NCBI GenBank assembly: GCA_938031175.1
Contig: CALHGZ010000009.1
Location: forward strand, 1 to 64,000
DNA length: 64,000 bases
DNA from: Candidatus Kapaibacterium sp.
Lineage (GTDB): Bacteria; Bacteroidota; Ignavibacteria; Kapaibacteriales; UBA2268
Reading direction: 5' to 3'
Part shown: piece after piece, positions 4,352-7,094 of the stretch
Layout of the letters: every line of letters begins with the position of its first letter
How positions within the stretch are numbered: position 1 is the stretch's first letter
Program-made: the position numbers and the translations under genes
Notes under the pieces: generated by a model
Seen by the model: the letters and a program-made list of their open reading frames with translations, nothing else
Database searches by the model: none
Told to the model about the DNA's origin: nothing

Positions 4352-4483
4352 ATGAGGGGAGAGTCAATTTTCTCAAGTATTCCAATCAAAGACTTTAAAA
4401 GGACAAAGGACCTTTGGACGAGAATAGGCTTTTGGTTTGACGAAAATTTAACTGAAGATAAAGTTTTTTTTCATTGCTTATAA
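4352..4483 (+). pseudogene. Truncated VOC/glyoxalase-family N-terminus (43 codons)
   Basis: A short frame of 43 residues starts at ATG 4352 behind a purine-rich AAAGGATAAG. Its sequence, with IPIKDFKRTKDLWTRIGFWF then FDENLTEDKV, follows the first beta-alpha-beta unit of vicinal-oxygen-chelate proteins (typically L/I-P-V-K-D-L-x-x-S-x-x-F-x-x-LGF). VOC proteins are usually about 120-140 residues, so two thirds is missing. Its TAA (4481-4483) overlaps the ATG of the exporter gene by one base (TAATG), so it may still be translated and coupled. It could be a leftover of a deletion joining two genes or a functional leader ORF; I favour a remnant. Confidence 0.5.
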
Positions 4484-5466
4484 TGATTAGCAAGATAAAA
4501 ATTGAAAAATACCAGGGATTTCTTTACTTCGTTTCAGTCATAGTCGGTATTTTAATTGGTGCTACTTATCCGGAATTTTCAAATTCGTTTGAGATAATCT
4601 TATGGCCTGTTTTGGCTTTTCTTCTTTATATTACTTTTTCTCAAATACCAATATCTCATATTCCCAAGGCTTATATTGACTATAAATTTATAACAGCTGC
4701 ATTAACTGGAAATTTTGTCTTGATTCCAATACTTGTAGCTATTTTAATTAACCTTGTAGGGTCGGACGATATTGTATTGAAATTAGGTATTGCATTAGTA
4801 TTGTTAGTTCCGTGTACTGATTGGTTTATAACGTTTAGCCATTTAGGTAAAGGAGATACAAAATACGCTGTGGCACTTGCTCCTATAATTTTATTTGCTC
4901 AGTTTCTGTTTTTGCCGATTTTTATATACTTAATGTTTGGTAAAAGCCTGACTTTTGATATTGCACAAGGGAAATTAATTGTAATCTTTGTATGGTTTAT
5001 TGCCATTCCTTTATTTACAGCTTTCATCACTCAAAAACTTGCCGAAAGACATAAATTTTGGAAAAATTCCCTAAATTTTTTGGAATGGTTGCCTGTGCCG
5101 CTATTAACTATAATAGTTTTTATAATTTTTAGTTCACAATTTCAGACTATTATCGCTTCACAAAATATTTTTGATATTTTAGTTACAGTATTTCTACTAT
5201 TTCTAATAATTTCAATATTTTTTGCAAAATTTCTCACAAAAATTTTCAAATTACCTACAGAACAAGGAAGGGTATTGGCTTTTAGCTTTGGTACAAGGAA
5301 CTCATTTGTAGTGTTACCGATAGCACTTGCTCTTCCTGAACAATATCAAACAGCAGTTGTGGTAGTGGCATTTCAGCCACTAATAGAACTTGTTGGAATG
5401 TTAATTTATATAAAAATTATACCGAATAAAATATTTAAAATGAAGGAAATTATTGTTGAAAAATAA
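4483..5466 (+). CDS. Arsenite/bile-acid:Na+ symporter superfamily exporter (ACR3-like)
   Basis: This protein of 327 residues has about ten membrane helices. The diagnostic segment is VPCTDWFITFSHLGKGD near residue 110, which corresponds to the conserved Pro-Cys-Thr motif of ACR3-type arsenite permeases and related 'arsenic resistance protein' members of the SBF/BART superfamily. A second conserved segment near residue 270 is SFGTRNSFVVLPIALALP. Family knowledge suggests a proton- or sodium-coupled inner-membrane transporter, with arsenite efflux the best guess. No arsR or arsC lies nearby, so the substrate remains open. I chose ATG 4483 because it overlaps the stop of the upstream fragment; an in-frame TTG lies 9 bases earlier. 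Confidence 0.75.
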   Translation: MISKIKIEKYQGFLYFVSVIVGILIGATYPEFSNSFEIILWPVLAFLLYITFSQIPISHIPKAYIDYKFITAALTGNFVLIPILVAILINLVGSDDIVLKLGIALVLLVPCTDWFITFSHLGKGDTKYAVALAPIILFAQFLFLPIFIYLMFGKSLTFDIAQGKLIVIFVWFIAIPLFTAFITQKLAERHKFWKNSLNFLEWLPVPLLTIIVFIIFSSQFQTIIASQNIFDILVTVFLLFLIISIFFAKFLTKIFKLPTEQGRVLAFSFGTRNSFVVLPIALALPEQYQTAVVVVAFQPLIELVGMLIYIKIIPNKIFKMKEIIVEK

Positions 5467-5559: not shown

Positions 5560-5787
5560 TCAATTTCAAGATTTTCTAAATTCGAAAATAAAAATTTTGT
5601 GATCTACCCAAAATGCAAACTAAAACAAGCTTAAATATATTTGATATTCAAATTTGCAATTATTTATCATTTTATTAAGTAATTGATTTATCTTTGAATT
5701 AATCTCTTAAAAAAAATTTAATCTTTGTTACTATTTGCATTAACAATTAGATTTTGTAGATTGAAATAAATTTAGTATTTTAGAGTA

Positions 5788-5882
5788 TTATAGGTGATGG
5801 GGTTCACCTTAAACCGCAATAATGCTGATAACTCCTACCAAAATGTTATAAAAATTATTATTATTTTGTAGGAGTTATTTTC
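5788..5882 (+). promoter_or_regulatory. Fluoride riboswitch (crcB RNA) with overlapping expression hairpin
   Basis: The aptamer runs from about 5788 to 5840. GGTGATGGGGTTCACC (5793-5808) forms the first stem-loop, AAACCGC (5811-5817) supplies the pseudoknot strand, and GCTGATAACTCCTAC (5824-5838) closes it. These are the conserved blocks of the fluoride aptamer. Right after it, AACTCCTACCAAAAT (5830-5844) can pair with ATTTTGTAGGAGTT (5863-5876). That second hairpin uses the CTCCTAC strand of the aptamer and buries the AGGAG ribosome-binding site (5870-5874), which lies 8 bases before the antiporter ATG. A fold exclusive with the ligand-bound aptamer fits fluoride-induced expression. The short U-rich tail is a poor terminator, so control of translation is more likely. 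Confidence 0.93.
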
Positions 5883-7094
5883 ATGCTTAATATTTTTTCC
5901 ATTGCTAGTTTTTGGTTTTTTGCTGCGGTTTTATCAACAATTCTAGCCAATCGCTTAAAAATATCAATGGCTCTAATGGAAATAATCATTGGGGGGATAA
6001 TAGGATATGCAGCTTTCGAATTAAATTTCATAGAAAAACTTGATTTAAATGCAGATTGGCTGAGATTTTGCACAGGGGTTGGTGCTATTATGCTAACATT
6101 TCTGGCTGGAGCAGAATTAAATCCAGATGCAATGAAATCAAAACTAAAAGAGGTTTCGATAATTGGAATAATAGGTTTTTTTGCACCTTTTATGGGCTGC
6201 ACTCTTATAGCTTACTATTTAATTGGTTGGGATTTGAAAGCAAGTTTGCTAAGCGGTATTGCACTCTCCACAACCTCAATGGCAGTTGTTTATGCAGTGA
6301 TGCTTGAATATGGTTTTAATAAAACTGAATATGGTAAAGGAATATTAGGTGCTTGTTTTGTAAATGATTTAGGTACAGTTATAGGTTTGGGTTTATTATT
6401 TTCTCCTTTTAACTATAAGACAATTATCTTTATTTTAGTAATGATAGCTTTAATATTTGTTCTACCTAAAATAACTAATTTCCTTATACAACATTTTGCC
6501 TACAAAACTGCTGCAATCCGTACAAAATGGATCATTTTTGTACTATTGTCATTGGGAGTACTTTCTTTATGGTCAGGTAGTGAACCTGTTTTGCCTGCAT
6601 ATATAATTGGAATGCTTTTAGCAAGAACAATGGAAGAGGATCATCATTTTGTTAGAAGATTGAGAACTTTAACAGTTGGATTTTTGACTCCTTTATATTT
6701 TCTCAGAGCAGGTGCACTAATGTCAATACCTTCATTATTTTCCGCACCCGTAATTTTTATACTTCTTTTTTTGGGGAAGATAATTTCAAAAATTTTCGGT
6801 TTATATCCGGTTATAAGTAATTTCAGGAGTGATAAAAGGGAAAAATGGTATTACACTTTGTTAATGTCAACAGGTTTGACTTTTGGTACAATTTCAGCAT
6901 TGTTCGGACTTTCTCACAATATTATTAATCAGGAGCAATATTCCTATATTGTTGGGACAGTAATTGCAAGTGCCATTATACCTACTTTGATAGCCAATAA
7001 ATTTTTCTTACCTAAACATCTAATAGAAAAACCTGTCTTAGATGATCAGCTTCAGGATGAATTAGAGATGATAGAAAACAAAAAGCAATATTAG
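5883..7094 (+). CDS. Cation:proton antiporter (CPA/Kef-type, Na_H_exchanger family) under fluoride control
   Basis: This protein of 403 residues has about 12-13 membrane helices spread over its full length and a short acidic tail (residues 380-403). It belongs to the monovalent cation:proton antiporter fold (PF00999). Visible family features are a glycine-rich LTFLAGAELNPD segment near residue 75, the STTSMAVVYAVMLE helix near 130-145, and the ion-binding pair Asn-Asp in CFVNDLGTV near residue 160. An N-D rather than D-D pair is usually linked to electroneutral exchange. No RCK/TrkA-N regulatory domain is attached. Fluoride riboswitches are known to control Na+/H+ antiporters as well as crcB and eriC-F. 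Here the gene likely helps restore pH or ion balance when HF enters, or exports fluoride itself. The start is fixed by AGGAG 8 bases upstream. Confidence 0.87.
   Translation: MLNIFSIASFWFFAAVLSTILANRLKISMALMEIIIGGIIGYAAFELNFIEKLDLNADWLRFCTGVGAIMLTFLAGAELNPDAMKSKLKEVSIIGIIGFFAPFMGCTLIAYYLIGWDLKASLLSGIALSTTSMAVVYAVMLEYGFNKTEYGKGILGACFVNDLGTVIGLGLLFSPFNYKTIIFILVMIALIFVLPKITNFLIQHFAYKTAAIRTKWIIFVLLSLGVLSLWSGSEPVLPAYIIGMLLARTMEEDHHFVRRLRTLTVGFLTPLYFLRAGALMSIPSLFSAPVIFILLFLGKIISKIFGLYPVISNFRSDKREKWYYTLLMSTGLTFGTISALFGLSHNIINQEQYSYIVGTVIASAIIPTLIANKFFLPKHLIEKPVLDDQLQDELEMIENKKQY

Follow-up and report, generated by a model that had tools for sequence, protein, structure and literature searches.

The CLC-F antiporters and the Fluc channels are the two bacterial fluoride exporters named in a review that treats the Na+/H+ antiporters linked to fluoride riboswitches as pH helpers (PMC11139923). 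CLC-F and Fluc belong to unrelated protein families, and fluoride transport is proven for those two alone. More than 85% of strains carry CLC-F or Fluc, and the two exclude each other, with about 3% of strains containing both (PMC11139923). The association between fluoride riboswitches and Na+/H+ antiporters is credited to Baker et al. (2012), and the antiporters are described as the next-most common riboswitch target after the exporters (Baker et al., 2012, as cited in PMC11139923). In 2010, the crcB motif had been linked to K+ and Cl- transport genes, and many published examples of the riboswitch overlap a terminator (PMC2864571).

The window analyzed here is a stretch of 64,000 nucleotides from Candidatus Kapaibacterium sp. 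(GCA_938031175.1, contig CALHGZ010000009.1, positions 1-64,000, forward strand), which belongs to a genome of 2.69 Mb that is 97% complete. A cmscan of the window revealed a + strand match to the crcB riboswitch model RF01734 at 5784-5844 (score 59.3 bits, gathering threshold 34, E = 6.5e-14), spanning the full model (positions 1-64 of 64). It is the single copy found by an Rfam search of the whole genome. Both the P1 stem and the loop-to-3' pseudoknot can form (GGUG/CACC and GGGGUU/AACUCC, respectively). The initial annotation had claimed a complete fluoride aptamer, and the covariance search bears out the claim and the locus, with the start moved from 5788 to 5784. Judging from this match, the element is almost certainly a fluoride riboswitch, which would be expected to respond to fluoride. 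The features of the locus are as follows:

5784-5844, + strand: fluoride riboswitch aptamer (RF01734, full-length match)
5793-5808, + strand: aptamer stem P1 (GGTG at 5793-5796 with CACC at 5805-5808) and its loop, from the cmscan alignment
5799-5804, + strand: 5' strand of the pseudoknot, GGGGTT, complementary to 5830-5835
5816-5825, + strand: second aptamer hairpin, GCA-ATAA-TGC, from the sequence and the cmscan alignment
5830-5835, + strand: 3' pseudoknot strand, AACTCC, which doubles as the 5' arm of the hairpin masking the Shine-Dalgarno sequence (pairing analysis)
5827-5879, + strand: expression platform hairpin of 12 bp and 6 bp with one bulged C, predicted by RNAfold to bury the ribosome-binding site
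5868-5874, + strand: Shine-Dalgarno sequence GTAGGAG
5883-7094, + strand: antiporter gene, 403 amino acids, Na_H_Exchanger (PF00999), NapA-like fold, with N161-D162, R275, K299 and K303 (Pfam, AlphaFold)

The aptamer has the same parts as the crcB riboswitch, without differences, and its pseudoknot strand likewise extends into the expression platform. In the predicted stem of 18 bp, 5827-5838 pairs with 5868-5879, followed by 5840-5845 with 5862-5867. The pairing of CTCCTAC (5832-5838) with GTAGGAG that had been pointed out earlier is contained within this longer stem. The leader folds at -31.2 kcal/mol, in comparison to -17.3 +/- 3.1 for shuffled sequences (RNAfold; z = -4.5), and none of the 200 shuffles reached so low a value. 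Because AACTCC at 5830-5835 is common to both structures, the aptamer pseudoknot and the masking hairpin are mutually exclusive. When the two pseudoknot strands were withheld from pairing, as a stand-in for the fluoride-bound state, the masking hairpin was lost from the computed fold and the Shine-Dalgarno sequence was partly freed, its unpaired probability rising from about 0 in the free fold to 0.04-0.90 per base. The sequence evidence supports the proposal that a strand of the aptamer masks the ribosome-binding site. In the absence of fluoride, AACUCC(UAC) would pair with the Shine-Dalgarno sequence GUAGGAG(UU) and shut the start site, while Mg-bound fluoride would hold AACUCC in the aptamer pseudoknot, blocking the hairpin and allowing the antiporter to be made.

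The Shine-Dalgarno sequence lies 8 nt upstream of the ATG at 5883, the ATG is 3 nt beyond the end of the stem, and the window leader contains no clean T-run after it; translational control is therefore the likeliest mode, and it is very probable that the switch acts on translation. In this, the platform appears to differ from the many published examples that overlap a terminator. The layout of ACTCCT, AGGAGT and then ATG is found in most homologues, and transcriptional platforms, in which a GC-rich hairpin is followed by a T-run, are found in seven relatives (L107, L108, L111, L112, L120, L122 and L123). Since both the aptamer and the Shine-Dalgarno sequence fix the stem core ACTCCT/AGGAGT, no compensatory changes are expected in it. 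Across the window, genes make little use of Shine-Dalgarno sequences (10 of 42, compared with about 11% in shuffles), so the bulky stem itself, placed beside the start codon, may be as important for masking as Shine-Dalgarno pairing, or more so.

The gene behind the switch encodes a protein matching PF00999 at 130.2 bits (cut-off 26.2). TIGR00932, the CPA2 family of NCBIfam, matches at 105.3 bits, under its curated cut-off of 238, and by these scores the protein is CPA2-like yet outside the curated family. Neither PF02537 (CRCB) nor PF00654 (Voltage_CLC) matches it. The GC content of the gene (0.322) and its GC3 (0.228) fit the surrounding window (0.32 and 0.247 +/- 0.033), and on this basis contamination or a recent foreign origin was rejected. 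The antiporter stands alone behind the switch. An SBF/ACR3-like transporter gene (4474-5466), also on the + strand and scoring under the ACR3 cut-off, immediately precedes the riboswitch; this gene and a DUF389 neighbor both lie upstream of the riboswitch. At the beginning of the window, two adjacent + strand ORFs (59-1240 and 1247-1657) read as though a change of frame had divided a single outer-membrane protein of the surface-antigen type.

The pairing of riboswitch and antiporter, which had been suggested as something to look for in relatives, recurs across many phyla, with a fluoride riboswitch upstream of about 59 of 64 clade members (four duplicate genomes counted once) and five lacking one at threshold. 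In a scan of genome_contigs, RF01734 was found at threshold upstream of the antiporter at 43 of 45 loci (exceptions L110 and L119), typically no more than about 250 nt from it. Within the class of the window, 12 of 15 further members have RF01734, two of them at the head of an operon (G156 and G180), and those without it at threshold are L058, L061 and the fragment L068. The riboswitch match of L058 (G596) is decayed, at 23.1 bits. This locus, from the window's own family, looks decayed in its gene as well, with an in-frame TGA and the catalytic Asp replaced by Asn. RF01734 is also present in all seven additional members of the clade from a Smithella/Syntrophus-type family, whereas none of 15 loci encoding different CPA proteins of the class has it, one of them being the locus of the window genome's second CPA protein. 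Published riboswitch-linked Na+/H+ antiporters are of the same gene class and lie behind the same riboswitch.

Some relatives carry further genes in the same operon: enolase in two cases (L126 and L062), and a dynamin-like GTPase, UspA and a CYTH protein in another (L060). Among the known targets of fluoride is enolase, which occurs frequently in fluoride-riboswitch operons (PMC11139923). Genes for dynamin-like GTPases recur directly behind fluoride riboswitches of the class (L060, L013, L024 and L041). At L126, three fluoride riboswitches lie within 450 bases (969-1420), two of them preceding the antiporter-enolase operon on the + strand and a third, on the - strand, oriented the opposite way. 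At another locus, an nhaA-I RNA (RF03057, a riboswitch according to Rfam) is found at L099:4417-4473, about 220 bases downstream of a fluoride-switched antiporter.

Record annotations place clade members in Syntrophaceae, Smithella, Bacteroidota, Spirochaetota, Omnitrophota, Goldbacteria, Hyphomicrobiales, Peptococcaceae and one Thermoplasmatota (archaeal) MAG, a spread taken from record titles, in which single cases are open to binning errors. The gene tree mixes phyla, and the window protein groups with a Syntrophaceae/Smithella branch and Bacteroidales rather than with the other representatives of its family, a pattern that suggests lateral transfer. By sequence, these antiporters form a distinct riboswitch-linked clade that is widespread and apparently laterally moving.

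The AlphaFold model of the window protein (pLDDT 87.5) has Thermus NapA (4bwz, 5bz2) as its best structural match (Z 41, 366 residues, rmsd 3.1, 20% identity), and NapA and KefC are the nearest solved relatives by sequence. Beyond the fold, the window protein and NapA share the catalytic Asp and Lys, D162 aligning with D157 of NapA and K303 with K305, and both residues are kept in the clade. However, N161 replaces D156 of NapA, with Thr instead of Asn in 13 of 58 clade members, and basic residues occupy positions 275 and 299, where NapA is hydrophobic. K299, one helical turn before K303, is invariant in all 58 members, and position 275, within a YFLRAG motif, is Arg or Lys in 54 and Val in four. 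Neither position is basic in any of 15 comparators, namely NapA, KefC and 13 proteins of the class aligned at these columns. In comparison to the K+/H+ exchanger KefC, the window antiporter has the same membrane domain with Asp and Lys kept, while it has ND instead of QD, the extra basic residues, and no RCK (KTN) domain. As previously annotated, the ion site is an Asn-Asp pair and RCK/TrkA-N is missing; PF00999 is its sole domain match, and the chain stops at residue 403. The Asn-Asp site alone is no argument for fluoride, and the extra basic residues are more telling. Additional positive charge beside a protonatable Asp might be expected if the site took an anion.

To our knowledge, every characterized member of this fold moves cations, and electroneutral exchangers have an Asn-Asp pair similar to N161-D162. 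Together with the fold, D162 and K303, which match cation antiporters, this residue pair speaks for a conventional Na+(K+)/H+ exchange activity, which would aid fluoride tolerance indirectly by correcting the cytoplasmic acidification caused by HF entry, with fluoride leaving by another route or being tolerated. Riboswitch-linked Na+/H+ antiporters have been interpreted as such pH helpers in the literature (PMC11139923), yet this role is somewhat doubtful for this clade. The cation-antiporter comparators are without its basic residues, and a pH helper should accompany the fluoride exporters, whereas, in the class of the window, the clade described here occurs almost only where both exporters are absent. 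As the published view does not predict such exclusion, the exclusion counts against it.

Another substrate linked to fluoride, such as divalent metals or metal-fluoride complexes, is an unlikely explanation. Fluoride disturbs the balance of divalent cations (PMC11139923), and K299 and R275, instead of binding an anion, could be salt-bridged to E33, E78 or E234, which are conserved; in that case the basic residues would be regulatory or stabilizing. However, nothing positive was found for another substrate, which also would not by itself explain the exporter exclusion.

The exclusion begins with the window genome itself, in which neither Fluc (PF02537) nor CLC (PF00654) was matched anywhere, while the same searches were positive in 10 and 12 of 14 control genomes, respectively. 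The earlier remark that no crcB is nearby therefore extends to the whole genome and to both exporters. Fluc is present in 287 of the 391 genomes of the class, distributed as 1 of the 16 with the antiporter and 286 of the 375 others (Fisher 1.3e-8); the contrast holds among good-quality genomes (7.8e-10) and by genus (2.7e-7), in tests where the species are related and most genomes are drafts. Within the window's family, Fluc occurs in none of seven genomes with the antiporter and in 21 of 30 without it (p = 0.001). Additionally, a CLC-F query returned about 20 CLC-F-like genes in the class (at least 32% identity and at least 165 bits), none of them in an antiporter-bearing genome. In the genus g206, three species have Fluc (G412, G449 and G475), one has a CLC-F-like gene (G472) and one has the antiporter (G434). 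As a rule, a genome of the class encodes one of the antiporter, Fluc and CLC-F, similar to the exclusion between CLC-F and Fluc, and the antiporter shares with these two both the riboswitch and the genomic niche. The sole genome of the class with Fluc and the antiporter is G569, in which one Fluc copy adjoins the antiporter. This locus (L063) is a fluoride gene cluster with three riboswitches, where Fluc, a DUF190 protein and the antiporter occur together.

Among the 61 antiporter genomes overall, Fluc is found in 3 and CLC in 13. The CLC proteins of these 13 genomes were weighed as possible hidden fluoride exporters and rejected, as they have no GNNLI/GMGLI, GREGT/V or GEVTP signature, an imperfect test in that the CLC-F-like proteins L164 and L165 from elsewhere also miss most signatures. 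That the exclusion is a by-product of common ancestry or incomplete genomes, with no special link to exporter loss, is very improbable. In its favor are the relatedness of the species, the draft state of the genomes and a Smithella/Syntrophus-type family in which Fluc is generally scarce (2 of 51), whether the antiporter is present or not, so that no contrast is seen there. However, the exclusion holds by genus and inside the window's family, antiporter-bearing genomes of the class are 93-100% complete, the single-contig genome G520 (CP058732) has the antiporter and neither exporter, and the mixing of phyla in the gene tree shows that presence is not simple descent.

The preferred reading, to which a probability of roughly 50% is assigned, is that a fluoride-responsive translational ON switch drives an antiporter that replaces the known exporters, perhaps through F-/H+ exchange. 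Its parts differ in strength. From these comparisons, the antiporter probably stands in for Fluc and CLC-F as the main fluoride-induced defense in this lineage. The recurrence of the pair and the near-exclusion of exporters lend further weight to the suggestion that it acts directly in fluoride tolerance, and the family extends well beyond one lineage. That the protein itself transports fluoride is put forward tentatively. The most likely route would be the exit of fluoride in exchange for protons at the NapA-like site, where D162 and K303 would handle the proton and the clade-specific K299 and R/K275 would help to hold the anion. The retained cation-site Asp, the Val at position 275 in four members, the five members lacking a riboswitch at threshold, the weak use of Shine-Dalgarno sequences in the window and the co-occurrence with Fluc in G569 speak against the preferred reading.

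The presence of a fluoride riboswitch upstream of Na+/H+ antiporters is already a published association. New from comparative genomics are the distinct clade, its near-exclusion of exporters in one class, its operon partners and its clade-specific basic residues. A literature search, with subscription papers and preprints outside its scope, turned up neither a functional assay of an antiporter of this kind nor any account of the exclusion. It is conceivable, at a little under even odds, that the clade constitutes a third bacterial family of fluoride exporters, F-/H+ antiporters built on the cation:proton antiporter fold, with anion selectivity arising from the added basic residues and lateral spread together with the riboswitch in replacement of Fluc or CLC-F. 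If the clade exports fluoride, it would add a third exporter family and an example of anion transport on a cation-antiporter scaffold. In that case, it may also explain how some genomes seemingly without fluoride defense cope, among them those of Syntrophus- and Smithella-like bacteria, some spirochaetes and the relatives of Kapaibacterium.
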